Assembly: GCA_003151335.1 (NCBI GenBank)
Contig: PLXE01000047.1
Location: 1-64,000, forward strand
DNA from: Acidobacteriaceae bacterium
Lineage (GTDB): Bacteria > Acidobacteriota > Terriglobia > Terriglobales > Acidobacteriaceae
Direction: 5' to 3'
Length of the DNA: 64,000 nt
Part shown: positions 22,768 through 57,317 of the stretch, one piece after another
How positions within the stretch are numbered: the stretch's first letter is position 1
Layout: every line of letters starts with the position of its first letter
Made by a program: the position numbers and the translations under genes
The notes under the pieces: model-generated
Seen by the model: the letters and a program-made list of their open reading frames with translations, nothing else
What the model was told of the DNA's origin: nothing
Database searches by the model: none

Positions 22768-23193
22768 TCAGCGCGCCTTCACCCTGACCTGGAACGTCTT
22801 CACCGGAGCCACGTCGTGTTCCCATGGCCGGCGGTATTCCAAGGTGAGCGATGCCATCCCCGCGGAAACGGCCCTCAGCCGGAACTCCTGCGTGACCGGC
22901 GCGCCCACGACATGGCTGTTTTGGCCATTCTTCTTCGTGGAACTCTTCACCAGTCTGAGAGGCGAAGGATCGCCTTTGATCGCCCAACTGTACCCAGTTG
23001 ACGGGTTGCTGTTCAGCCGGATCACCAGGGTGCCGCCTGCGGGAAGGTCAATATCTTTTCCATTGTCCTGGTCCGTGATAACCACAACCGAGGAAGCGTT
23101 CTTCTGCTGGGCGCCTGGCGATTGCGGTGGTTGCGCGACGAGCATCAAAGAGAAAAGCAGCAAAACCGAGACGACGATCGCAATGCGAGTCAT
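22768..23193 (-). CDS. chagasin-family (I42) cysteine protease inhibitor, exported
   Basis: This 141-aa protein has a signal peptide (MTRIAIVVSVLLLFSLMLVA). The mature domain shows two of the three inhibitory loops of the I42 family: NPSTGYSW (residues 63-70, the NPTTGF/Y loop) and RRPWE (121-125, the RPW loop). The third, a Gly-rich loop, may be GAPVTQEF. These inhibitors plug the active site of papain-like proteases. No papain-like enzyme is visible in the window, so the target may be foreign. The start is set by the signal peptide, and the ribosome-binding site is a weak purine run. It is divergent from an anion transporter. Confidence 0.85.
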   Translation of the reverse strand: MTRIAIVVSVLLLFSLMLVAQPPQSPGAQQKNASSVVVITDQDNGKDIDLPAGGTLVIRLNSNPSTGYSWAIKGDPSPLRLVKSSTKKNGQNSHVVGAPVTQEFRLRAVSAGMASLTLEYRRPWEHDVAPVKTFQVRVKAR

Positions 23194-23367
23194 AGGAGGA
23201 CGTCTTCTTTCTGTTATAAAGTTTTGATCGCTGGCGGCATGAGAGTGACCGCTCACGAAAAAATTGTCAATCGAAACCACAATCGCGCCGCCGCTTCCAC
23301 CTTGCCTGAGAGCAACCCCGGCCGACAAGCCCGCCGCGATTGAACGGTTAATGAGGACCGCAGCCAG

Positions 23368-24624
23368 ATGATCGTGGCCATTACGCAGGCGCTCTCGCAC
23401 GGACACATGCTTATCGCGTGGACGATCCTCCTGATGAGCTACCTCGTGTTCGCGGTTGGCCGCCTGCCGGGCACCAAGATCGACCGGCCGGCGATGGCAA
23501 TCATCGGCGCGGTGCTCATGTTTGTCTTCCGCGTTTTTACGCCAGCGCAGGCCATCGCCAGCATCGATTTCTCGACCCTGGTGTTGCTCTTCTCCATGAT
23601 GCTGATTGTCGCCAGCCTGCACCTGGCCGGTTTTTTCCAGTGGGTGTCGTACCTGGTGATCGAGCATCTCTCACCGCAACACCTTCTGCCGGGCGTCATC
23701 TTCACCAGCGGCATCCTGTCGGCGTTTCTGGTGAATGACGTGGTCTGCCTGGTGATGGCTCCGCTGATCTTGGGTATTTGTAAACGCATGAAGCTCCAGC
23801 CGCTGCCTTATCTGCTCGGCTTGGCGACGGCCTCCAACATCGGCAGCGCGGCCACCATCACCGGCAATCCGCAAAACATCTTGATCGGGTCGGTGTCAGG
23901 CATTTCCTATCGCCACTTCGTGGCACATCTTGGACCCGTGGCGCTCATTGGCCTGTTCGTGGATTGGGCGCTGCTCCACTGGATCCACCTACGGAGCGAT
24001 ACCGCAGGCCCACAACCCTTACCTGACAAAACAGTGCTGCAGAATCAGCTACCCGAAACCCATCTGGCATGGCCGCTGACGGTGACGCTCGCTGTATTGG
24101 CCGGGTTTCTGTTGGGATTTTCGCCGCCACTGGTCGCCGCCGCTGGAGGCGCGCTGTTGCTGGTGCAGCGCCACCGGGAGCCAAAAGCGATCTACAGCGA
24201 TGTCGATTGGTCGCTGCTGATGCTGTTTCTGGGCCTGTTCTTGATTCTCGGCGGAGCCGAGCAAGCCGGAATAACGCAGGAACTACTCACTACTGCCGAG
24301 CGCCTGAACTTGCACAACACTGTGATCTTCGCGGCGGTCGTGACGTTGCTGTCGAACATCGTGAGCAACGTGCCGACCGTGATGTTGTTGAAGGGGCTGG
24401 TACCGCAGTTTCACGATGCGCGCAGTGCATGGCTCTTGCTGGCAATGTCCAGCACGCTGGCGGGTAATCTGACCATCACCGGTTCGGTGGCCAATATTAT
24501 CGTGGTGGAAAAAGCCCGGGCCGAAGCTCACATCAGCTTCGTTGAGTACATGAAAATCGGTGTGCCGGTGACCCTGATCACGCTGGCGATCGGTCTGCTG
24601 TGGCTGCACTTCGTGCATTACTGA
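23368..24624 (+). CDS. ArsB/NhaD/SLC13-superfamily anion transporter
   Basis: This 418-aa inner-membrane protein has about 11 hydrophobic helices. Conserved ion-transporter signatures occur twice: SAFLVNDVVCLVMAP and ATASNIGSAATITGNPQNI in the first half, SNIVSNVPTVMLL and GNLTITGSVANIIV in the second. This inverted-repeat layout fits the IT superfamily (ArsB, CitM, NhaD). The substrate cannot be told from sequence: arsenite, citrate, sulfate or Na+/H+ exchange are all possible. No arsenic genes are adjacent. The ATG at 23368 has only a weak ribosome-binding site. Confidence 0.85.
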   Translation: MIVAITQALSHGHMLIAWTILLMSYLVFAVGRLPGTKIDRPAMAIIGAVLMFVFRVFTPAQAIASIDFSTLVLLFSMMLIVASLHLAGFFQWVSYLVIEHLSPQHLLPGVIFTSGILSAFLVNDVVCLVMAPLILGICKRMKLQPLPYLLGLATASNIGSAATITGNPQNILIGSVSGISYRHFVAHLGPVALIGLFVDWALLHWIHLRSDTAGPQPLPDKTVLQNQLPETHLAWPLTVTLAVLAGFLLGFSPPLVAAAGGALLLVQRHREPKAIYSDVDWSLLMLFLGLFLILGGAEQAGITQELLTTAERLNLHNTVIFAAVVTLLSNIVSNVPTVMLLKGLVPQFHDARSAWLLLAMSSTLAGNLTITGSVANIIVVEKARAEAHISFVEYMKIGVPVTLITLAIGLLWLHFVHY

Positions 24625-25733: not shown

Positions 25734-26147
25734 TTATGACTTGTACGGACTGGGGCCGAGCTTCTGCACTTGCTCGGTAAAGCTGCTCACTACTTGGGCG
25801 AATCGTGGGCCTTCCGCCGCCGAAACCCATTCCAGGCGAAAGCGCTCTTCTTCGAGTCCGAAATCGGCCAGCATCAAGCGGAGAGCGTCGGCCCTTTTCT
25901 CGGCCTTCAGGTTGCCCTCCTGATAGTGGCAGTCGCCGGGATGACAGCCGCACATGAGAACGCCGTCGGCGCCCTTGGTCAGCGCCTCGATCACCAGGTT
26001 GGGATGGACCATACCCGAGCACATCACGCGAATCATGCGGATGCTGGGCGGGTACTGGATGCGCGAGACACCGGCCAAATCGGCGCCGGCATACGAGCAC
26101 CAGTTGCAGCAGAAAGCCAGGATCAAAGGTCGAAAGTTATCTTCCAT
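25734..26147 (-). CDS. mvhD: MvhD-type iron-sulfur subunit (hydrogenase/heterodisulfide reductase delta subunit)
   Basis: This 137-aa [2Fe-2S] protein passes electrons from the hydrogenase to HdrA-type flavoproteins. It shows the MvhD cysteine signatures CCNWCSYAGAD (about 13-23), RVMCSGMV (about 41-48) and MCGCHPGDCHYQEGN (about 65-79). The length matches stand-alone MvhD (about 130-145 aa). The ATG at 26147 overlaps the stop of the HdrA-GltD-HdrA gene by one base (TGATG), so translation is coupled. It is the last gene of the operon. In Qmo complexes the same domain is fused to QmoB. Confidence 0.93.
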   Translation of the reverse strand: MEDNFRPLILAFCCNWCSYAGADLAGVSRIQYPPSIRMIRVMCSGMVHPNLVIEALTKGADGVLMCGCHPGDCHYQEGNLKAEKRADALRLMLADFGLEEERFRLEWVSAAEGPRFAQVVSSFTEQVQKLGPSPYKS

Positions 26148-29100
26148 CACGCTACCTCCAGGGCCGCCTCAATCTGGGCTCGGATTTGATCGAGGGTGAA
26201 TCCCCGGACGAAGATGCCGTTCTTGGGACAGGTCGCCTGGCAGCATCCGCAGCCTTTGCAGGTGCTTTCGTTGGTCTCGACGACCTTCTTAACCGACCCC
26301 TGCCACATGTATTCGACCAGGGTGATCGCCTTGAAGGGACATGTGTCCACGCAGTAGGCGCAGCCATCGCAGCTCTCGTCCACCACCTGCGAGATGTTCG
26401 CCCCCAGTTCGAGGCTGTCCTGACCGAGGACGGCGGCTGCTCGCGCCGATGCCGCCTGGGCCTGCAGGATGCATTCATCAAGCCCCTTCGGAGAATGCGC
26501 CAGCCCACACAAAAAGACGCCGTCGGTCATGAAGTCCACCGGGCGCAGCTTCATGTGGGCTTCGAGGAAGAAGCCCTCGCTGTTCAACGGGACCTTGAGG
26601 AACTGTGCGAGGGTGCGATTCTCTTCATTGGGATGAATGCCCGCCGACAGAACCACCAGGTCGGCCCGGATCAACATCGGCATGCCCAGGGTTTGGTCGA
26701 AGACGGTGACCTCGAGCGCATGGGAGTTCCGCGATACCTCGGGTTTGCGGTCTTCGTCATAGCGCACAAAGACGACGCCCTGCTGGCGTGCCTTGGTGTA
26801 GTAGCTCTCTTTGAAGCCGTAGGTGCGGACGTCACGGTAAAGAACGTACACGTTCGTCTCGGGGGAGAGCGTCTTTATGCGCAGGGCATTCTTGATGGCG
26901 TCGGCGCAACATACCCGGGAACAGTAGGGATGATCGGCGTCTCGCGATCCCACGCACTGGATCATGACAATGGTTTTTGCTGGCCGATTCGCTGCCCCGG
27001 CCAGGAAGCCGTTCCCGAAGGCAAGGCGTGCTTCGAGCCGGCGCTGCGTGATGACACCATCGTCGTGTCCATACAAGTATTCTTTTGGCTGGTACTGCTT
27101 CGCGCCCGTGGCTACGATTACGACCCCGTGCTCGACTTCGGTGGTCTCGCCGCGAGTTGAGATTCTGGTTTTGAAATTGCCGATGGAGCCTTCGATGTTT
27201 TCGATGATTGCGCCAGTAAACAGACGGATTCTGCTGTTGTGTTGAACTTCGTCGCGCAGACGCGCTAATTCTTCCTGTGGTCTTTCTCCGTTGAGTAAGT
27301 AATGGAGGTGCCGCAGATTACCGCCAAGCTCATTCTCTTTCTCCACCAGATACACGTCGGAGCCTTGGCGGGCCAGCGTCAAAGCGGCAGTCATGCCCGA
27401 GATCCCGCCACCAATGACCAGCGCGGATTTTTGGATTCTGATCCGCTGTCGCTGCAGCGGCTGTAACAGGCGAGACTTGGCCACGGCCATTCTGAGTAGG
27501 TCCCTTGACTTCTGCGTGGCCATTTCCGGCTCATGCATGTGCACCCAGGAGCACTGGTCGCGGATGTTGGCCATCTCAAAGAGATAGGGATTGAGTCCAG
27601 CTTCGGCCATCGTGTTGCGGAAGAGCGGCTCGTGGGTTCGCGGGGTGCAGGAGGCCACCACTACCCGGTTCAGATCGTGTTCCGCGATCTTCTCCTTGAT
27701 CCGATCCTGGGCATCGTTGGAACAGGTATAGAGATTATTCTCCGCGTACACCACGTTGGACAGCGTTTTCGCATATTCCACGACGTTCGGGACATCGACC
27801 ACGCCGGCGATATTGGTCCCGCAGTGGCAGACAAAGACTCCGATGCGAGGCTCTTGTCCCTTCACATCTTTTTCGGGTGGGTAGAGCTTGGGCGTGATCA
27901 GCGTGCCTCTGGCATCCTTTAAAAGCGAGAGCACCTCGGCTGCCGCTGCCGAAGCCTGCATCACAGTTTCCGGAATGTCTTTGGGTTCGACAAACGGCCC
28001 GGCGACGTAAATTCCTTGACGAGACGATTCCGCAGGCTGGAATGCGGAGGTCCCGCAAAAATTGAATTCGTTGAGCGCAATTCCGAAGCGGTCGGCAAGG
28101 ACCTTAACATCCTTCGGAGGTTGCATGCCCACCGACAGGACGACCAGGTCGTACTCCTGGGACAGCTTTTTGTCGTTTTCACCCAGATATTGAACGATCA
28201 AATTTCGGCTGTCTGGGACTTCCTCGATTTTCGGCACGCGAGAACGGATATAGCGCACACCGAGATCTTGCGCCCGGTGGTAATACTGCTCGAAGCCCTT
28301 GCCGAAGGCGCGCAGGTCCATGAAGAAGATGTCGCATTGCAGACTTTCTCCAAGATGCTCTTTGGCGATGATGGCTTCTTTGGTGGCATACATACAGCAG
28401 ACGGACGAACAGTAGTCGTGCTCGAAATCGCGCGATCCAACGCACTGCAGGAAGGCGATCCGCTTCGGCTCCTGCCGGTCGAAGGGGCGGAAGACATGAC
28501 CGGAGTAGGGCCCCGAGGCGGACAGAATCCGCTCGAACTCCAGGGCCGTGAGCACATTCGGAAAGCGGCCATAACCCAGGTCTTTCTTCAACCGGGCATC
28601 GAAGATCTCGTATCCCGGCGCGAGGACGACAGCCCCTACGTTCAGCTCAAGATCCTTTTCTGTTTGCAGGTAGTCGATCGCGTGGGCCTCGCAGGCGGTC
28701 TCGCAGAGATGACAATCGCAGCAGACCCCGCAGGCAAGACAGCGTTTGGCCTCGGCAACCGCTTCTTCCACCGTGTAGCCGGCGTGTACCTCGGCAAACG
28801 TTCTTCCACGGGTCGCGGGGTCGAGGGCTTGTACTGGGACCGTGCGTTGCATCAGCACCCCAGTCGTGTCCACGGCGTATTCGGTTCGATAGGGCCCTTC
28901 CAACTCGCGACCGGCGCGCAGGTCCTGGTGATTGAGCCAGCGATCGATGGATATTGCAGCTTTCTTGCCGGCGAGCTTGGCGTTCACCACCACGTCGGGA
29001 CCGGTCACGCAGTCGCCACCGGCGAAGACACCCGGCAGTTTGGTTTCGAGCGTCATCGGATCGGCGGTGAGAGTTCCCCACTTCGTGGTTTCAAGACCCA

Positions 29101-30616
29101 GGCGCTCTCCTAAAGCGCCCACATCGGGGGACTGGCCGATAGTGACGATGACTGCGTCACACGGCAGAACAAATTCGGAGCCGGGAATCGCTTCGGGAGC
29201 AGGTCGTCCGCTGGCATCCGGTGGGCCGAGTTTCATCTTCAGGCACTCAAGACAGGCCACGCGGCCGCCCGCCCCGGCCTTGAAAGACTTGGGGGCGACG
29301 AGAAACATCAATTTGATACCTTCGCGCTCCGCGTCCTCGACCTCACGCGGATCGGCAGGCATCTCTGGGCGGGTACGGCGATATGCGATCGTAACGTCCC
29401 CTGCTCCGCAACGAAGCGCGGTGCGTGCCGCGTCGAGAGCGGAGTTTCCACCGCCAACCACGAGCACATGCTGGCCGGGCGCCACCGGCTGTCCGAGATT
29501 CACTCGGCGCAGGAACTCCACGCCCCCGGTCACGCCAGCCAGGTCTTCTCCGGGAACACGCAGTTTCCGTTCGACGTGAGCGCCGATGGCAATGAAGACG
29601 GCGGCAAAGTTCTTTCGTAGGTCGTCGAAGGCGAGGCTGCGGCCTACCGCCGTGTCCAGCCTGATCTCGATACCGATGGCACGGATCCTGTCCACTTCAG
29701 CATTCAGCAATCGGCGCGGCAAGCGGAACGAAGGGATTCCCACGGCTAGCATTCCGCCGGCGGTGGAGAGCGCCTCGAAGATGGTTGGGCGATAGCCTTG
29801 TTGCCGAAGCCGATAGGCACAGACCAATCCGGCCGGGCCGGAGCCAATGATGGCAACTCTTTCCGGACGGTCTGGAACGGTGGGTTCCGGTAGCTTGTAG
29901 TCGGGATGATAGTCCGTGATGAAGCGTTTCAACGCCGGCAGATTCAGCGGATCGTCCACCCCAGCGCGCGTACACGCGGCGGTACAGGGATGTGTGCAGA
30001 CCCGTCCACATATGGAGGGGAGCGGGTTATCGCGCAGAATGACCTGGAGCGCCTCGTCAAAGCGCTGTTGCGCGATCAGGGTCACGTATCCCTGTCCGTC
30101 CTGATGAACCGGGCATGCAGCCTGGCAGGGAGCGGCCCCGCGGCGAGAGATCGTGAAGATGTTAGGAACGGCCTGTGGGAAGGGCCGGTAGATTGCCTTC
30201 CGCTCTCCCAACCCATGATCGAACTCGGACGACAGCGTCACTGGACAAATTGTCGTGCAAGCGCCGCAGCCCGTGCATTTCGACGAGATCACAAAGCGTG
30301 GCTGCTGCTTAATCCGGATCGTGAAATTTCCCGGCATCCCATCGACGTGTTCCACCTCACTCAAGGTGAGGATTTCGATGTCCTTGTGCTTGCCGATCTC
30401 GACCAGGCGCGGCGCCATGGTGCACATCGCGCAATCGTTGGTGGGAAAAGTTTTGTCGAGCTGCGCCATGACCCCGCCAATGGCAGCGCCGCGCTCGGAC
30501 AAATACACCTTGATGCCCCCGTTGGCCAGATCGAGGGCGGCCTGCATGCCGCCGATACCGCCTCCTACAACCAGGGCAGCGCCCACGGGTGGGGTCTTGG
30601 GATCGTTAGACGGCAT
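26147..30616 (-). CDS. giant HdrA-GltD-HdrA fusion flavoprotein
   Basis: In this 1489-aa protein residues 13-125 begin an HdrA/QmoA unit: FAD Rossmann GGGIGGM, cysteines in DCAMCTMAP, and a CTGCGACTTICP cluster. A GltD-like module (about 160-645) is inserted, with PCQAACP and CGRVCTHPC, a second FAD site GSGPAGL (258-264), an NAD(P) site GGGNSALDAA, GVFAGGDCVTGP and the Cys-rich CLACGVCCDCHLC. The first HdrA unit then resumes with CVGSRD and CSSVCC (725-741). A second HdrA unit runs 925-1489: FVCHCGTNIAGVVDVP, Rossmann GGGISGM (1068-1074), CVGSRD/CSRVCC, and two C-terminal 4Fe-4S motifs CDGCAYCVDTCP and CKGCGCCQATCP. It is likely the bifurcating hub between hydrogenase, NAD(P)H and the quinone-linked subunit. 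It overlaps the upstream gene by 11 bp, with GGAGG ahead of the ATG. Confidence 0.93.
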   Translation of the reverse strand: MPSNDPKTPPVGAALVVGGGIGGMQAALDLANGGIKVYLSERGAAIGGVMAQLDKTFPTNDCAMCTMAPRLVEIGKHKDIEILTLSEVEHVDGMPGNFTIRIKQQPRFVISSKCTGCGACTTICPVTLSSEFDHGLGERKAIYRPFPQAVPNIFTISRRGAAPCQAACPVHQDGQGYVTLIAQQRFDEALQVILRDNPLPSICGRVCTHPCTAACTRAGVDDPLNLPALKRFITDYHPDYKLPEPTVPDRPERVAIIGSGPAGLVCAYRLRQQGYRPTIFEALSTAGGMLAVGIPSFRLPRRLLNAEVDRIRAIGIEIRLDTAVGRSLAFDDLRKNFAAVFIAIGAHVERKLRVPGEDLAGVTGGVEFLRRVNLGQPVAPGQHVLVVGGGNSALDAARTALRCGAGDVTIAYRRTRPEMPADPREVEDAEREGIKLMFLVAPKSFKAGAGGRVACLECLKMKLGPPDASGRPAPEAIPGSEFVLPCDAVIVTIGQSPDVGALGERLGLETTKWGTLTADPMTLETKLPGVFAGGDCVTGPDVVVNAKLAGKKAAISIDRWLNHQDLRAGRELEGPYRTEYAVDTTGVLMQRTVPVQALDPATRGRTFAEVHAGYTVEEAVAEAKRCLACGVCCDCHLCETACEAHAIDYLQTEKDLELNVGAVVLAPGYEIFDARLKKDLGYGRFPNVLTALEFERILSASGPYSGHVFRPFDRQEPKRIAFLQCVGSRDFEHDYCSSVCCMYATKEAIIAKEHLGESLQCDIFFMDLRAFGKGFEQYYHRAQDLGVRYIRSRVPKIEEVPDSRNLIVQYLGENDKKLSQEYDLVVLSVGMQPPKDVKVLADRFGIALNEFNFCGTSAFQPAESSRQGIYVAGPFVEPKDIPETVMQASAAAAEVLSLLKDARGTLITPKLYPPEKDVKGQEPRIGVFVCHCGTNIAGVVDVPNVVEYAKTLSNVVYAENNLYTCSNDAQDRIKEKIAEHDLNRVVVASCTPRTHEPLFRNTMAEAGLNPYLFEMANIRDQCSWVHMHEPEMATQKSRDLLRMAVAKSRLLQPLQRQRIRIQKSALVIGGGISGMTAALTLARQGSDVYLVEKENELGGNLRHLHYLLNGERPQEELARLRDEVQHNSRIRLFTGAIIENIEGSIGNFKTRISTRGETTEVEHGVVIVATGAKQYQPKEYLYGHDDGVITQRRLEARLAFGNGFLAGAANRPAKTIVMIQCVGSRDADHPYCSRVCCADAIKNALRIKTLSPETNVYVLYRDVRTYGFKESYYTKARQQGVVFVRYDEDRKPEVSRNSHALEVTVFDQTLGMPMLIRADLVVLSAGIHPNEENRTLAQFLKVPLNSEGFFLEAHMKLRPVDFMTDGVFLCGLAHSPKGLDECILQAQAASARAAAVLGQDSLELGANISQVVDESCDGCAYCVDTCPFKAITLVEYMWQGSVKKVVETNESTCKGCGCCQATCPKNGIFVRGFTLDQIRAQIEAALEVA

Positions 30617-31772
30617 GGGGGACCACCTCCGCTGCCGGCGCTTGCCGCCCGGCTCTCTGCCTGACCGCCAGGAAATACAGGGCTAGCGGTCGATAAACCA
30701 TGTGGGCCCACTTGCCAAACGACATCTCCACCAGCAGCATGGGCGTGGCGATGACAATGTGCAGGGCGTACAGCAAATGACAGGTGAGCCCAAAGCCGGC
30801 ATAGCGGAAAATGTGTGCCGCCAGACCGCTGAGCACCGTCAACACCAGCAAGATGGGAAAGGCCAGGTCCTGAAACCGAGTCTCTTTGTAGATCTCCTTC
30901 TGTGCCCGCAGCCGGCCTAGAAAAATCTCTCCCATGCCGTAGAGGATGAGACCCGTCGCCAGGTATCCGAGCCACCGCTGGGGATTGTAGAAGGGATATA
31001 GGTTGTCGGTTTGAAACCACTTCAGTCCGAACACCTTGATGGTGAGCATCATCACCGTGCCCAGGGCCAGTCCCCAATGGCCGAGCCACCGGCCCCGGTC
31101 TGGGCACTTCCGCATCAGGGAGTGCGTCACCGACTGGTCCACGTAGGTCCCGAACTCGGCCACATAGGCAGAGAATGGAATATGCGCCCGCTCTTCTGCA
31201 CTCATGGTGAGTCGCCAGATACGCAGGACACGCGATAGCAATAACAATAGTGGAACCAAGATCACCGTCAACGTGTAGTAGGTCATCAGCGGGAACATGT
31301 GCTCCAAGCCAAGCGGCGTGGTGACAAGCTGCGTGGCCGGCATCTTCACGTACCACAGGTGATAGCCGAGGATCAGCAGAAAGGTGAGTGCGGCGACGAA
31401 GATCAAGGAACCCACGTACCACGCCGTGGACTGGAGCAGCGTGGGAGCGATGCCCGTCCAGTCGTACTGCGCGCTCAGGAAGCGCCGCAGCGTGAGCATG
31501 GAAATTCTGGGTTCTGCTTGACGCGGACAGGCAATAGAGCACTCGCCACAGTCATGGCAGACCCATGGATCCAGGCTTTGGACCAGCGGCTGTCTCAGTC
31601 CCAGCAGGGCATAGCGAATGCTCCTGCGGGGAAAGGTCACAGTATCGTCGACCAGATCGCAGGTGAGCGTGCAACTCCCGCATTGGTAGCAGCCCGTAGG
31701 ATCGAACTTTCCATACCTCCGGATGTCGGCCAACAACGTGGGATCGCAAACCGAAAGTGTTTCCACTGCCAT
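30606..31772 (-). CDS. QmoC/HdrCE-like iron-sulfur membrane subunit
   Basis: This 388-aa protein has two 4Fe-4S motifs in the soluble N-terminus: Cys28/31/34/38 (CYQCGSCTLTC) and Cys72/75/78/82 (CHDCGECSIACP). About five to six membrane helices follow (from residue 115) with several His residues that could bind heme b, as in NarI/HdrE. HdrC fused to an HdrE-like membrane part is the QmoC architecture, known to exchange electrons with menaquinone. It lies in the hydrogenase operon, 26 bp after the 66-aa gene, and overlaps the HdrA fusion. No HdrB (CCG-domain) gene is present, so a heterodisulfide is not the expected acceptor. Confidence 0.88.
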   Translation of the reverse strand: MAVETLSVCDPTLLADIRRYGKFDPTGCYQCGSCTLTCDLVDDTVTFPRRSIRYALLGLRQPLVQSLDPWVCHDCGECSIACPRQAEPRISMLTLRRFLSAQYDWTGIAPTLLQSTAWYVGSLIFVAALTFLLILGYHLWYVKMPATQLVTTPLGLEHMFPLMTYYTLTVILVPLLLLLSRVLRIWRLTMSAEERAHIPFSAYVAEFGTYVDQSVTHSLMRKCPDRGRWLGHWGLALGTVMMLTIKVFGLKWFQTDNLYPFYNPQRWLGYLATGLILYGMGEIFLGRLRAQKEIYKETRFQDLAFPILLVLTVLSGLAAHIFRYAGFGLTCHLLYALHIVIATPMLLVEMSFGKWAHMVYRPLALYFLAVRQRAGRQAPAAEVVPHAV

Positions 31773-32021: not shown

Positions 32022-32576
32022 TTACGCGCTGGCTTGGCATTGGCATAGCTCTCCTCGTGGGGCTGTGGCACGGGGAAAATACTCGCGCACCAGCCACTCC
32101 GCCGCTTGCGGCACGGCGTCGCTGACGGCTTTCGAGAAACCTTGGGAGATCTGCTCCGGCAGTGGCCCCGTCTGGCAGGCCAGCACACGTACCTCGACCC
32201 CGCAACTTTCTTGCAACTCGCGCAGCAGGTTGGAGGTGGGCAACTGGTGTAGCGAGAAATCGTCCAGTTTGACGAAGGGGATCTCGGCAGGATCGATCTC
32301 GAATATCTCGCCCTGAGTGCGCCCGGCATCGATTGCGTCCAGGATTAGCAATCGCTGTGGACGCGCGGAACTCAGGCAGAGAGTGAATAACAGCTTGCGC
32401 ACGCCCGTGCCCACGTCCAGCAAGCAAACCGCTTCGGGCACTGGGTAGTGTGACTCGAGATAGTCAACTACCGCGCACCCGAAGCCGTCATCTCCAAACA
32501 GAATATTCCCGCAGCCGAGCACCAGGGTCGGCTTCCGGCAGAACTCGGGAAGATCGCATGGATCGATCTCCCGCAT
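32022..32576 (-). CDS. [NiFe] hydrogenase maturation protease (M52)
   Basis: This 184-aa endopeptidase trims the C-terminus of the large subunit after nickel insertion. It carries the M52 signature LGCGNILFGDDGFG (about 19-32, the Asp/Glu-type metal ligand near the start), a later LLDVGTG and LDAIDAG segment, and LHQLPTSNLL with the conserved His. Length is normal for HycI/HyaD-like proteins. It lies 24 bp downstream of the large-subunit gene, which still encodes a 25-residue C-terminal extension for it to remove. Confidence 0.93.
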   Translation of the reverse strand: MREIDPCDLPEFCRKPTLVLGCGNILFGDDGFGCAVVDYLESHYPVPEAVCLLDVGTGVRKLLFTLCLSSARPQRLLILDAIDAGRTQGEIFEIDPAEIPFVKLDDFSLHQLPTSNLLRELQESCGVEVRVLACQTGPLPEQISQGFSKAVSDAVPQAAEWLVREYFPRATAPRGELCQCQASA

Positions 32577-32600: not shown

Positions 32601-34046
32601 TCAGTTGGCAAGCGAGTCAAGCAATTTGCCGTCCGCGCTGAAGATATCCAGTTTGACCGACAGCTTTCCATCCAGCCGGTGGGTCGCGCAGGAGAAGCAT
32701 GGGTCGTAGGCGCGGATCGACATTTCCACTGTGTTCAGCACTCCCTGGTCGTACACGCCGTTATGGATCAAACTCTTGGCGGCTTGCGTGACCGACATAT
32801 TGATAGGAGCGTTGTTGTGGGTGGTGCCCACAATCAGGTTGACATTGGTGATCAAACCGTCGGCATCGGTGGTGTAGTCGTGGATGAGCGTGCCGCGCGG
32901 CGCTTCGGTGACGCCCACGCCTCGCGCTGCCCGCGGCGTAACCTTCACCCGCGTCTCGGTGCTGGTGATCTCGGGATCGTCCAGCAAACGGACGGTATTT
33001 TCGGCGTTGTAGAGCAACTCGATCAGCCGCGCCCAGTGATAGAGCAGGGTGAGCTGTGCGGGCCGCCCGAACTTGGCGCGAAACTCCTCCAGTTCGGTCT
33101 GCGCCAGCGGTGTGTCGATATAGTCGCAGGTGTTGATGCGCGCCAGCGTGTTGGCGCGATACACGCCCTTGGGGTTTTCCGCATCCATGGAGAAACCTTC
33201 GCCCCATTGTTTGGCATAGGGGAACTTCAAGTAGCTCCACGGCTCGATGTGCTCGGAGATGAACTCCGTATAGCGGTCATACGGAAAGTCCTGGTATGCG
33301 CCGGTTGGCGTCATCAGGCGAAGCTTTCCGTCGTAGAGGTTCAGCGCGCCATCTTCCTTGACAGTGCCGATGAAACCGGTAGTGATAACTCCCAGCGACT
33401 TCACCACGTCGAGGTATTTGGGGAAGACATTCTCCTTGGCAAAAGCAATGGAGAACTTGGCCAGTTCCAGCGCCTCATCGGCCTGCTTGCGCAACTGATC
33501 GCGCTCCCCAGCAGCCAACGGTTTGCTGAATCCGCCAGGAACCGCCGCCTGGGGATGAATCGCCTTGCCCGCCAGGACTTCCAGCATCTTGGCACACATG
33601 TGGCGTACCTTTACCACTTGTCGGGCAATATCCGGAGCTGCCTGCAACACTCCTATGACATTGCGGACCGAATAAGGCGCATCCGGTCCCAGCAGGAAAT
33701 CGGCTCCCGCCAGAAAGTAGAAGTGCAGGATGTGCTCTTCCATGAAGGCAATGCTGTTGCACAGCTCGCGCAACTTCTTGCCAGCCGGGGGCGGCTCGAC
33801 TCCGAAGACCGCGTCGCAAGCCTTGGCCGAGGCCAGGTGATGCGACCACGGACAGACCCCGCAAATGCGCGGCGTGATGCGCGGCATGTCTTCTACCGGA
33901 CGGCCCAGGCAGAATTTTTCGAAGCCGCGCAGTTCAATGACGTTCACCCGGGCGGTGTCCACGTTGCCGGCATCGTTGAGCTGAATGGTTATCTTGGCGT
34001 GGCCCTCGATGCGGGTGACAGGTTGTATGACCAGTGTCTTTGACAT
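32601..34046 (-). CDS. mvhA: group 3c-like [NiFe] hydrogenase large subunit
   Basis: This 481-aa catalytic subunit has nickel ligands Cys62 and Cys65 in RICGVCPWSHH and the C-terminal pair Cys450/Cys453 in DPCFSCATH. An N-terminal RIEGH (12-16) is also present. The overall pattern (DPCFSCATH, no membrane or Tat features) fits MvhA/group 3c rather than uptake group 1. A 25-residue tail after His456 is expected to be cleaved on maturation. A strong CGGAGG ribosome-binding site lies inside the end of the small-subunit gene, 3 bp upstream. It oxidises or evolves H2 in the cytoplasm. Confidence 0.95.
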   Translation of the reverse strand: MSKTLVIQPVTRIEGHAKITIQLNDAGNVDTARVNVIELRGFEKFCLGRPVEDMPRITPRICGVCPWSHHLASAKACDAVFGVEPPPAGKKLRELCNSIAFMEEHILHFYFLAGADFLLGPDAPYSVRNVIGVLQAAPDIARQVVKVRHMCAKMLEVLAGKAIHPQAAVPGGFSKPLAAGERDQLRKQADEALELAKFSIAFAKENVFPKYLDVVKSLGVITTGFIGTVKEDGALNLYDGKLRLMTPTGAYQDFPYDRYTEFISEHIEPWSYLKFPYAKQWGEGFSMDAENPKGVYRANTLARINTCDYIDTPLAQTELEEFRAKFGRPAQLTLLYHWARLIELLYNAENTVRLLDDPEITSTETRVKVTPRAARGVGVTEAPRGTLIHDYTTDADGLITNVNLIVGTTHNNAPINMSVTQAAKSLIHNGVYDQGVLNTVEMSIRAYDPCFSCATHRLDGKLSVKLDIFSADGKLLDSLAN

Positions 34047-34049
34047 GGA

Positions 34050-34976
34050 TCACCTCCGGGGCAGCGGCCGCAGACGGCCGGCGCCAGCAAAACGGTTGAA
34101 GGTTGCGGCCCGGTCCGGAATCTGCTTGGGGTCGAGACCGATAGAGGAGAGTGCTCCCATCATGTCCACCATGGGATTGGCTTTGTCCGATATCGGGCCA
34201 AAGCAACCCTCACAGGGCATGTAGGCGCGGATGCAGCGCGGGTTACCGTCACTGCCACCGCAGCCGGCGCGCGTCGCCGGCCCCAGGCACAGGATTCCTT
34301 GCTCCATCAGGCAGCGCATTTCGCTCAGCGGCGCTCCCGGCACGAAGTCCGGCGCTTCCAGTCGGCGCTTTAGCGTCGAGACCGCCTTCTTTTCGCGCTT
34401 GGTGGGACACTCATCGCAAACGCTCTTCGTCGCCAGCGCGGGCAACGGTTTGCCTTCCAGAAGTGCAACCAGCGCTCCCGCCACCATCTCCGGCGTGGTT
34501 GGACATCCCGGCAAATAGGCATCCACCGGCACCACCTCGTGGACGGCATACACCCGATCGGTAAGCGCGGGAATCTGCTCGTTGGGTATGCCATCTTTCT
34601 CGGTGGTAACGCTGTCGCGATACACCTTCTCCAGCAATTCTTGCGTGCTGAACTGGTTGGCGAGGGCGGGTATGCCGCCAAAGCAGGCACAAGAACCCAG
34701 AGAGATCAGGATCTTGCACTTCTTGCGCATCTCCTGCGCCAGTTTCTTGTGCTCCTCGCTGCGGATTCCTCCCGATATAAGTCCGACATCCGCGGCGGGA
34801 ATTTCCATCTCCGTACCTTCGCCAGTCTGACCAAAGAGCTTGTGGTCCATCAGGACTGGCATGTGCACGATTTCCACTTGCTTCAGTACGTCGAGGAGCG
34901 GTTCACCGATGTCGAGGATGGTTACCTCGCAACCTCCGCATATGGCGAACCATTCTTCGGCAAGTCGAGCTGCCAT
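34050..34976 (-). CDS. mvhG: [NiFe] hydrogenase small subunit, MvhG-type
   Basis: This 308-aa iron-sulfur subunit has an N-terminal AICGGCEVTILD (proximal cluster ligands), GSCACFGGIP (about 112-121), PGCPTTPE (about 156-163) and further cysteines in KSVCDECP, ILCLGPATRAGCGG and MPCEGCFGP for the medial and distal 4Fe-4S clusters. There is no Tat signal or membrane anchor, consistent with a cytoplasmic group 3 enzyme. GGGAGG sits 6 bases before the ATG. It is the first gene of the operon. Confidence 0.94.
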   Translation of the reverse strand: MAARLAEEWFAICGGCEVTILDIGEPLLDVLKQVEIVHMPVLMDHKLFGQTGEGTEMEIPAADVGLISGGIRSEEHKKLAQEMRKKCKILISLGSCACFGGIPALANQFSTQELLEKVYRDSVTTEKDGIPNEQIPALTDRVYAVHEVVPVDAYLPGCPTTPEMVAGALVALLEGKPLPALATKSVCDECPTKREKKAVSTLKRRLEAPDFVPGAPLSEMRCLMEQGILCLGPATRAGCGGSDGNPRCIRAYMPCEGCFGPISDKANPMVDMMGALSSIGLDPKQIPDRAATFNRFAGAGRLRPLPRR

Positions 34977-48597: not shown

Positions 48598-51228
48598 CTA
48601 CTGCAACAGCAACCCGCTCTCGCCGTTGCCATTCTCAGCCACTTCTTCCGGCGGAATGAGCGACGTGGCGGCCACACGGTCACCCTGCTCCAGATGCAGC
48701 AGGTGAACGCCCTGGGACGAGCGTCCGCACTCCCGGATGGTCTTGGTGCCGATGCGGATGATCTTGCCGAACTGGCTGATCACAACTATCTCGGACTCTT
48801 CATTCACCAGCATAATGGAGACCACCTTGCCATTGCGCGCGGTGGTCTTCACGTTGATGACGCCCCCGCCGCCGCGTGATTGCAGACGGTATTCATCGAC
48901 GTCGGTGCGCTTGCCGTAACCATTCTCGGTGACCGAGAGGATGAGATTGGCCTCCCGCTCGTCGCTGTCTTTGGTCTTCGCGCGTACCTTGGGAGTGACC
49001 GCCATGCCCACAACGTAATCGCCTTTGCGCAACCTCATGCCGCGAACGCCGTGGGCCGGGCGACCCATGGGTCGTACATCCTCTTCCTCGAATCGAATCG
49101 CTTTGCCGTCATGGGTCGCCAGGAAAACGATCTGGCTGCCGTCGGTACAACTGGCGGCCACGAGTTCGTCCTGCTTCTCGATGGCGATGGCGTTGATGCC
49201 ATTCGACCTCACGTTGCTGAAGTCCTTCAGCGGCGTTTTCTTCACCGTGCCGCTGCGCGTGGCGAAGAAAACGTACTTGCCCTCTTCTTCCAGATCGCGC
49301 ACGGCGAGTAGCGCGCGCACGCTCTCGCCCGCCTGGAGGGAGACGAGACTTGCAATCGCTTTGCCCTTGCCGGCGGCGCTCAACTCGGGAATCTCGTACA
49401 CCTTGAGCCAATACACGCGCCCGTTGTTGGTGAAGACCAGGATGTAGTCGTGGGTGGACGCCACGAAGAGATTTTCGACGAAATCCTCCTCGCGCGTGCT
49501 CATGCCCTTGCGGCCGGTGCCGCCACGGCGCTGCTGCCGATAGGTCGAAATCGGAGTGCGCTTCATGTAGCCGGAGTGGCTGACCGTGACCGCGACCTGC
49601 TCGTCGGCGATCAGGTCTTCCAGGCTGATCTCGACCGTTTCGTCCTGGATGACGGTGCGGCGCGCGTCTCCGTACTTCTTTTTGACTTCCTCGAGCTCCT
49701 TGACGATGACGCCACGTAGCTTTTTTTCGCTGGCCAGAATTGACTCGTACTCGGCGATGCGGCTGCGGACCTCGGCCAATTCCTTAAGGATTTCGTCGAT
49801 CGACAACCGGGTCAAACGATGCAACTGCAATTCCAGGATGGCGTCGGCTTGCACGGCGTCGAAGGGACGAGTGAGTTGCGACGGAAGCAGGCCCTTCAGC
49901 GAAGCCGTCTTACCCGACTTGCCTTCCGACACGTTTACCGTCTTGCCGGAAAAATATTCCACCAGGCTGGTTCGGGCTTCGGTGCGGTTCTCGCTGCCAC
50001 GAATGATGCGGATCACGTCATCCACACGGTCCAGTGCGACCTGATAGCCCTCGAGAACATGTTCGCGCTCGCGCGCCTTCATCAGCAGATAGGCGGTGCG
50101 CCGTCGCACTACGTCGATGCGGTGATCGACGAAGTACTGGATGGCCTGCACCAGACCCATTTCTTTGGGCTGGCCGTTGATCACGGCCAGAAAGATCATG
50201 CTGAAGCTCTCCTGCATCGAGGTGTGCTTGAAGAGCTGGTTGAGCACGATCTGGGCCTCGGCGCTGCGCTTCAGTTCGATGACGATGCGCATGCCGTCGC
50301 GGTCGCTCTCGTCGCGGACATCGCTGATATCGTCGATCACCTTGTTATTCACCAGTTCGGCGATGCGTTCGACCAGCTTTGCCTTGTTGACCTGGTAGGG
50401 GATCTCGGTGACGATGATCGCGTCCTTGTCCTTCGTGAGGTGCTCGATGGCGGCCTTGGCGCGCATGATGAAGCGCCCGCGTCCGTTACGATAGGCTTCG
50501 GTAATGCCGCTGCGCCCGTAGATGAATCCAGCCGTCGGGAAATCCGGGCCCTGCACGTGCTTCAACAAGTCGGCGAGCGTGGCGTGCGGATTGTTCACCA
50601 GGGTGATGCAGGCGTCCACGATCTCCGTCAGATTGTGCGGCGGAATGTTGGTCGCCATGCCGACGGCGATACCGTTCGATCCGTTCACCAGCAGGTTGGG
50701 AATTCTCGTCGGCAACACCATCGGCTCGACTGTGGTGTCGTCGAAGTTGGCGACGAAATCGACGGTGTCTTTGTCGATGTCAGACAGCAGCTCTTCCGCG
50801 AGCTCAGTGAGGCGCGATTCCGTATACCGGTAAGCTGCGGGGGGATCGCCATCCACAGAACCAAAGTTGCCTTGGCCGTCGATCAGCGGATAGCGCAGGC
50901 TCCAAGGTTGGGCCAGGCGCACCATCGCGTCATATACAGCACTGTCGCCATGAGGGTGGTACTTCTTCAGACACTCGCCGACGACGCCGGCGCACTTCAT
51001 GTGCTTGCGGTTGTGCAGCACGCCCATGTCGTGCATCGCGTAGAGAATGCGACGATGCACGGGCTTGAGGCCGTCGCGCACGTCGGGCAAAGCGCGTCCG
51101 ATGATGACGGACATGGAATAGTCGAGATACGAACGTCGCATCTCCTCTTCAATGTTGACGGGTTGTACGTTGCCCCCGGTGGGTCCCCCGGGGCCGAGCG
51201 GTAATTGCTGGTTGGGATCGTCTGCCAT
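48598..51228 (-). CDS. gyrA: DNA gyrase subunit A
   Basis: This 876-aa type II topoisomerase cuts and rejoins DNA. Its catalytic Tyr135 is in AAYRYTE. The quinolone-determining region reads [16 protein letters not shown] with Ser96 and Asp100, the sensitive-type residues. The C-terminal beta-pinwheel begins with the GyrA box [12 protein letters not shown], which distinguishes gyrase from topoisomerase IV. It starts 3.4 kb downstream of gyrB on the same strand, with two envelope-protein genes in between. The ribosome-binding site is weak. Confidence 0.96.

Positions 51229-54614: not shown

Positions 54615-57317
<2,703 letters not shown>

Follow-up and report, generated by a model that had tools for sequence, protein, structure and literature searches.

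The stretch analysed, referred to as the window, comprises 64,000 nucleotides from an Acidobacteriaceae bacterium (GenBank assembly GCA_003151335.1, contig PLXE01000047.1, positions 1 to 64,000 of the forward strand). An open reading frame with an ATG start at 26147–30616 on the minus strand encodes a protein of 1489 residues in which two HdrA units are fused and a GltD-type module is inserted into the first. Because of this architecture, the protein is assigned to the known HdrL family, which has been little studied. The name dates from 2009, when it was given to a heterodisulfide reductase/glutamate synthase fusion of Desulfobacterium autotrophicum (PMC2702500), and a 2025 report mentions HdrL again (PMC12142623).

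The HdrL gene belongs to a minus-strand series in the order MvhG, MvhA, HycI protease, QmoC-like protein, HdrL and MvhD. The MvhG-type hydrogenase small subunit (34050–34976) matches PF01058 with 109.2 bits and VhuG with 239.9 bits, below the curated NCBIfam cut-off of 450. The MvhA-type [NiFe] hydrogenase large subunit (32601–34046), with the motifs RICGVC and DPCFSCATH, matches PF00374 with 134.9 bits; its best NCBIfam model is VhuA, at 439.7 bits below the cut-off of 800, so that MvhA, MvhG and MvhD are identified at the Pfam level. These genes are followed by a HycI-type hydrogenase maturation protease (32022–32576; PF01750, 75.6 bits) and a QmoC-like membrane subunit (30606–31772). The MvhD (FlpD) subunit (25734–26147; PF02662, 186.6 bits) lies downstream of HdrL. 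The start codon of MvhD overlaps the HdrL stop codon (TGATG), and at the other end the start of HdrL shares 11 bases with the QmoC-like gene.

Architecture and cofactor sites of HdrL

The top NCBIfam model for the chain is HdrA2, with 1017.7 bits over four stretches and a cut-off of 1100 that is not reached, while the GltD-type family NF009410 matches above its cut-off (549.7 versus 516 bits, best stretch 160–662). Four pieces of the chain align by phmmer to HdrA of known structure (5odc_A): residues 921–1093 to 2–174, 13–158 to 145–290, 632–846 to 293–510 and 1340–1484 to 508–648. Unit 1 is thus an HdrA without the N-terminal domain and the C-terminal ferredoxin, interrupted after residue ~160 by the insert. 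In unit 2, the N-terminal domain, the TrxR core and the C-terminal ferredoxin are present and the inserted ferredoxin is absent.

All parts of the chain are read on the minus strand, and conservation is given for 81 HdrL sequences (83 rows, with L183 and L185 left out). The first part of unit 1 (residues 10–160, 30137–30589) carries the flavin adenine dinucleotide (FAD) motif GGGIGG and the first ferredoxin motif (C114/117/120/124, in 81/81). The GltD insert (residues 162–630, 28727–30133), recognised by NF009410, comprises an Fe-S domain with C164/168/207/211/215 and K230, an FAD motif at 254–266, a nicotinamide adenine dinucleotide (phosphate) (NAD(P)) motif, GGGNSA...YRRTR, at 384–420, and C626/C629 at its C-terminal end. 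Unit 1 then resumes (residues 632–905, 27902–28723) with the second ferredoxin motif (C632/635/638/642), E695, K746 and a cluster set at C725/736/740/741. The N-terminal domain of unit 2 (residues 920–1060, 27437–27859) contains C930/932/965/990, also in 81/81. It is followed by the TrxR core (residues 1062–1400, 26417–27433), with an FAD motif, E1195, K1242 and C1221/1232/1236/1237, and by the C-terminal ferredoxin for two [4Fe-4S] clusters (residues 1405–1489, 26150–26404; Fer4_7 match at 1415–1466), whose cysteines are kept in 80 or 81 of the 81 sequences.

Across the family, nine cysteine sets of the [4Fe-4S] type are conserved in 80 or 81 of 81 sequences, and the window protein carries FAD motifs at three places and an NAD(P) motif at one. 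These motifs indicate nine [4Fe-4S] clusters, three FAD and one NAD(P) site. An earlier note, made from the DNA letters, had described a first HdrA unit split by a GltD domain with its own FAD and NAD(P) motifs and then resuming. This arrangement is borne out by the alignment of residues 13–158 and 632–846 to 5odc_A and by the GltD match at 162–639, as is the second HdrA unit with two C-terminal 4Fe-4S motifs. The note's estimate of at least three FAD sites also holds, but its six to eight Fe-S clusters fall short of the nine conserved cysteine sets.

E695 and K746 of unit 1 are invariant (81/81). They correspond, by count on the 5odc_A alignment, to HdrA E356 and K409, whose roles have been described for bifurcating HdrA (PMC12054007). 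Their counterparts in unit 2 are both present in the window protein and are found in 73/81 (E1195) and 68/81 (K1242) members of the family.

AlphaFold models were obtained for two halves of the chain, residues 1–918 (pLDDT 88.9) and 905–1489 (pLDDT 86.6). The first half superposes on HdrA 8rvu_a over 418 residues between positions 10 and 902 at 1.6 Å (Z 48.1), and on 9bov_A over 475 residues between 157 and 642 at 1.9 Å (VIA Z 48.9). The second half matches 5odc_A with a Foldseek E-value of 5.5e-63. As modelled, both halves therefore resemble solved HdrA, Nfn and Stn structures. The earlier note had proposed structure prediction as a check and a defective fold of the GltD or second HdrA segment as a refutation; in these models, which contain no cofactors, neither half has such a defect. 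A cofactor-incompetent segment was ruled out at this level, because the halves are modelled confidently and have solved proteins with cofactors as their structural matches.

The insert separates the two CxxCxxCxxxC motifs that belong to the inserted ferredoxin of HdrA. In sequence comparison, residues 162–639 are closest to the GltD modules of NfnA and StnC, followed by NfnL and GltD. The segment at residues 590–631 (28724–28849, EAxRCLxC) is N-terminal in canonical GltD: the region around C626/C629 aligns weakly (13.1 bits) to residues 7–47 of NfnL, its N-terminus, and a profile of HdrL 578–636 finds its match before the core in nine and after the core in ten of 19 GltD-like proteins outside HdrL (best scores 28.5–55.8 bits). 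From these two alignments, the insert is taken to be of a circularly permuted kind. Through the permutation, the two ends of the module would be expected to meet at a cluster of the module itself.

The ligand pattern of dihydropyrimidine dehydrogenase, which we assume to apply here, would give two GltD clusters, one at C626/C629/C164/C215 and one at C168/C207/C211 with K230. K230 aligns with K170 of StnC and is a lysine in 79/81 HdrL sequences; K170 has been reported as a lysine cluster ligand, and the GltD flavin of StnC as non-bifurcating (PMC10482914). The NAD(P) motif of the acidobacterial QmoC-linked members compared, GGGNSA...YRRTR, resembles that of NADP enzymes, as in the Nfn and Stn modules.

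Distribution and relationship to known systems

A scan of genome contigs for the HdrL family gave 576 candidate stretches encoding a relative, and the best 80, a sample biased toward the query, were analysed. Their record titles name Acidobacteria, Deltaproteobacteria, Peptococcaceae, Chloroflexi, Planctomycetes and others, with best-segment identities of 45–83%. A full-length filter was passed by 69 of these 80 loci; several of the 11 that failed touch a contig end. Two of the eight genus relatives searched have full-length, stop-free matches (83% and 78% identity), so that a full HdrL is found in three of nine genus genomes, counting its own. A match spanning residues 10–1474 or more is present in at least 12 of 297 genomes of the phylum, a lower bound since two candidates per genome were scored. 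The HdrA-GltD-HdrA chain, whose phylogenetic spread the earlier note had proposed to follow by an architecture search, is thus widespread across many phyla. A one-off fusion or an assembly artefact was ruled out by the same chain in genus relatives and in many phyla.

Three HdrL-like matches each contain an in-frame TGA codon (G081:C95:7539-11627, G106:C315:635-4726 and G105:C5:273593-276292), the first two with a TAG as well. TGA might encode selenocysteine here, as described for D. autotrophicum HdrL1 and HdrL3 (PMC2702500).

Archaea are known to have HdrA pairs fused into one chain (PMC12054007; PMC11237513) and HdrA with GltD inserts, one of them with mvhADG nearby (PMC12054007). A tree of 89 HdrA-unit rows was built with bacterial HdrA-HdrA fusions and no archaeal type II sequence, and its bootstrap has not settled. 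In this tree, units 1 and 2 of HdrL lie in two different clades, each shared with the corresponding unit of HdrA-HdrA (type II-like) proteins (33 rows each, 100/100). In a separate quick tree, the units of HdrL are mixed with those of HdrA-HdrA proteins; HdrA-HdrA fusions without GltD occur beside some HdrL. The nine HdrL of the 89-row tree that are linked to a QmoC-like gene form one clade by unit 1 (100/100) and by unit 2 (97/93). Five sequences taken as QmoA/QmoB, because they adjoin QmoC genes scoring over the curated cut-off, have a clade of their own (100/100). With HdrA/GltD fusions (2009) and HdrA types II and III (2025) already described, this architecture is a hybrid of such types; a Qmo fusion was ruled out, because QmoA/QmoB stand apart. 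The equivalence to QmoA, QmoB and an NAD(P) oxidoreductase in one chain, proposed in the earlier note, holds as an analogy only: QmoA/QmoB have their own clade, and the QmoC-like subunit falls outside 22 true QmoC.

The hybrid nature of the protein is apparent when it is compared with each of these systems. Archaeal HdrA type II likewise has two TrxR units, both with a Lys/Glu pair (PMC12054007), as the window protein has at E695, K746, E1195 and K1242. In archaeal type III, GltD is inserted at the ferredoxin and mvhADG occurs in a Bathyarchaeota cluster (PMC12054007). The window protein differs from both, as these are described in the available text, in combining the two features and in having a QmoC-like partner instead of HdrBC. 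Furthermore, the NAD motif of type III is GXGXXG (PMC12054007), whereas the GltD of the window has GxGxxA, with Ala in place of the last Gly in 80/81 HdrL. The HdrL of D. autotrophicum is described as an HdrA/GltD fusion with an NADH-type site and mvhD next downstream (PMC2702500); the window HdrL also has HdrA and GltD in one chain and mvhD directly downstream. However, compared by description, DsrABC genes follow HdrL1 and MvhD in that organism, and the parts of the text available describe no QmoC-like partner.

The HdrABC-MvhADG complex of methanogens (5odc) shares MvhADG and HdrA units with conserved ligands. The window system differs from it in that no HdrB was found on the contig, HdrC is replaced by the QmoC-like membrane protein, GltD is added and two HdrA units are found per chain. 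QmoABC also has two HdrA-like units and a membrane QmoC-type subunit, but the proteins belong to separate clades and the window system adds an NADP(H) module and a hydrogenase. StnABC and NfnABC (8oh5, 9bov) carry the same kind of GltD module, including a lysine at the StnC K170 position, but there it is joined to NuoG-like parts and not to HdrA.

The QmoC-like subunit and gene linkage

The QmoC-like protein combines an HdrC-like part for two [4Fe-4S] clusters with six hydrophobic stretches, seen by hydropathy, and matches NF038018 with 158.9 bits. A tree of 54 rows was prepared for this family, with ten duplicates or fragments and one weak match left out. The eight cysteines for the two clusters are kept in 53 or 54 of the 54 rows, and His232, His338 and His357 in all. 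One clade (100/100) unites the 14 HdrL-linked QmoC-like proteins with that of L173, and the 22 true QmoC fall outside it. Four other histidines, His138, 158, 320 and 332, are present in all 14 HdrL-linked proteins, in 1, 0, 0 and 1 of the 22 true QmoC, and in 3, 2, 8 and 2 of the 18 others; they are possible extra haem ligands. In L173 (5658–10022), the QmoC-like gene is followed by an HdrA unit, of which the first part alone is matched, and by a protein that looks NuoF-like by eye.

Ten loci contain the full set of six genes (the window, L200, L201, L028–L033 and L036). The set has three layouts, with the hydrogenase genes upstream (window, L200, L028, L030), downstream (L201, L029, L031, L032, L033) or, in L036, on the opposite strand. 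Gene order differs between L200 and L201, which come from the same genus. Linkage was counted within 6 kb of HdrL in 83 loci, many of them with short flanks, and the HdrB profile used was built from the HdrB genes of these same loci. A QmoC-like gene is found in 14 loci, HdrB in 35, both in none and neither in 34. Among loci with at least 3 kb on both sides, HdrB is present in 23 of the 30 without a QmoC-like gene and in 0 of the 4 with one. The actinobacterial locus L084 encodes an HdrC-like protein, HdrB, HdrL, MvhD, MvhG, MvhA and HycI, and therefore the QmoC-like and HdrB arms look interchangeable on the same hydrogenase–HdrL base. The partner set of HdrL, MvhADG, maturation protease and QmoC-like subunit looks new: searches of the open literature, with its papers available in part, found no HdrL with a hydrogenase and a QmoC-like subunit that replaces HdrBC.

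Related arrangements were also observed. A split version is present in L162 (719–7220) and L169 (1610–7644), with an HdrA-GltD protein (932/952 residues), a separate HdrA' (592/580 residues), a QmoC-like protein and small neighbours that are DsrE-like by eye. L170 (2569–10718) encodes MvhD-MvhG-MvhA, a QmoC-like protein and an HdrA unit without GltD, a hydrogenase–QmoC-like linkage without the NAD(P) module. In L035 (4963–7619), from a Bacteroidetes metagenome-assembled genome, the QmoC-like gene and HdrL are preceded by a [NiFe] hydrogenase pair of another kind, recognised by eye.

In the genome of the window organism, the menaquinone gene MqnC is matched with 482 bits (cut-off 428), and none of the 11 CCG-domain matches, the mark of HdrB, lies on the window contig (C53). 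The same genome has a second hydrogenase locus (L125, 3475–13677, G000:C71) with an HdrC-HdrB fusion, EtfB, EtfA, a CCG/HdrD-like protein, an ordinary HdrA, MvhD, MvhG and MvhA; this hydrogenase–Hdr cluster thus includes an electron-transfer flavoprotein. Elsewhere in the window, the minus strand carries gyrA and gyrB a short distance apart (48598–51228 and 54615–57296), and 22768–23667 encodes a 299-residue protein that has a peptidase inhibitor domain of the chagasin family (I42) at its C-terminus.

Proposed mechanism and alternative readings

From the genes, their linkage and the predicted folds, we infer that the six genes encode a complex for H2-driven bifurcation to NADP+ and menaquinone, with HdrL, a type II-like HdrA-HdrA fusion with a permuted NADP(H)-type GltD in the ferredoxin of unit 1, as its core. 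We put this reading at about an even chance. The complex would consist of five subunits (MvhA, MvhG, MvhD, HdrL and the QmoC-like protein), with the sixth gene encoding the maturation protease. The six genes on one strand, the overlaps of HdrL with the QmoC-like gene and MvhD, and the recurrence of the set in ten loci argue for one complex. The mutual exclusion of the QmoC-like protein and HdrB argues for a quinone arm in place of the HdrB arm. The reading is also favoured by the Glu/Lys pairs of the two units, the lysine at the StnC K170 position, the NADP-like GltD motif of the acidobacterial members, the MqnC gene and the computed gain from coupling at low H2.

In the proposed mechanism, H2 would be oxidised by MvhAG and the electrons passed through MvhD to the flavins of HdrL. 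The putative bifurcation site is the FAD of unit 1, with E695 and K746. Menaquinone (MK) would receive one electron by way of unit 2 and the QmoC-like subunit, the exergonic arm. The other would reach the GltD FAD and NADP+ through the split ferredoxin and the clusters of GltD, a step that would be uphill at low H2. The net reaction would be 2 H2 + NADP+ + MK → NADPH + H+ + MKH2.

The energetics were calculated with potentials of −320 or −370 mV for NADPH and −74 mV for menaquinone. At 1e-5 bar H2, direct reduction of NADP+ by H2 has a computed cost of +10.4 to +20.0 kJ/mol, and the coupled reaction yields −26.7 to −17.0 kJ/mol. At 5.3e-7 bar, about the atmospheric level, the coupled reaction is still computed at −2.5 to −12.1 kJ/mol.

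Several observations weigh against bifurcation by such a complex. At high H2 (1 bar), the reduction of NADP+ is computed to be feasible without bifurcation, and if the potential of NADPH is −320 mV, electron flow from H2 to NADP+ and to menaquinone is downhill for both at 1e-3 bar or more. The unit 2 lysine K1242, the bifurcation lysine of that unit, is missing in 13/81 sequences. Both points favour a non-bifurcating hub, in which the same complex would bring H2, NADP(H) and menaquinone to equilibrium, acting as a two-outlet hydrogenase with no energetic coupling. Such a hub is unlikely, while keeping a substantial share of the probability; the Glu and Lys of unit 1, invariant in 81/81, would not be needed by a simple relay. 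The subunits raise points of their own: the QmoC-like score is below the curated QmoC cut-off of 300, and its histidines are putative haem ligands. MvhA and MvhG of this type were not seen in 4 of the 14 QmoC-linked loci (L034, L035, L041 and L093); the first three are truncated at contig edges, but L093, with 5 kb of downstream and ~10 kb of upstream sequence, shows neither MvhA/G nor MvhD. The MvhA match of L200 falls into two pieces that leave out residues 78–107, through an assembly error or a broken gene. In addition, the YRR motif is present in 54/81 family members, so that NADP use is not general and cofactor preference probably varies across HdrL; L034, L035 and L093 have ACLE instead and perhaps use NAD.

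The same complex might run in reverse, with NADPH and menaquinol confurcated to H2 as a fermentative outlet in anoxic soil. Related enzymes are reversible. The group 3 hydrogenases of peatland Acidobacteria have also been described as bidirectional (Hausmann et al. 2018, PMC6018796, in the text available). Nevertheless, the forward coupled reaction remains at −17 to −27 kJ/mol at 1e-5 bar H2, and reversal would therefore require very low H2 together with reduced pools or a proton motive force, which makes this direction rather improbable. That ferredoxin stays the low-potential substrate, as in classic HdrA chemistry, with the GltD arm as a second outlet or an NADPH-to-ferredoxin branch, is also improbable. 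The cysteines of the inserted and C-terminal ferredoxins are conserved in 80 or 81 of 81 sequences, which speaks for it, but the insert occupies the very ferredoxin domain used for ferredoxin reduction in HdrA and could block the site, according to the available part of a 2025 archaeal study (PMC12054007). A true Qmo complex feeding sulfate or sulfite reduction, which the QmoC-like subunit and two HdrA units could suggest, is very improbable. QmoA/QmoB and QmoC belong to separate clades, the genome of the organism has no match over the QmoC cut-off, and the search of that genome for DsrA gave no match (AprAB was not searched); a role in sulfate or sulfite reduction there was rejected on the DsrA result.

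The wider picture suggested by the bifurcation reading is of a membrane-anchored, hydrogenase-driven, flavin-bifurcating complex that splits the electrons of H2 between menaquinone and NADP+, in which a QmoC-like subunit has taken the place of HdrBC and the ferredoxin houses a permuted GltD. This picture is offered tentatively, as a possibility somewhat on the doubtful side; such a complex could let some soil Acidobacteriota make NADPH from H2 at levels as low as near-atmospheric ones. It would suggest that HdrA has been re-tooled, with the disulfide arm (HdrBC) giving way to a quinone arm (QmoC-like) and a GltD module placed into the ferredoxin. If true, bifurcation would link H2 oxidation directly to respiration and to the supply of NADPH in some soil and peat Acidobacteriota.

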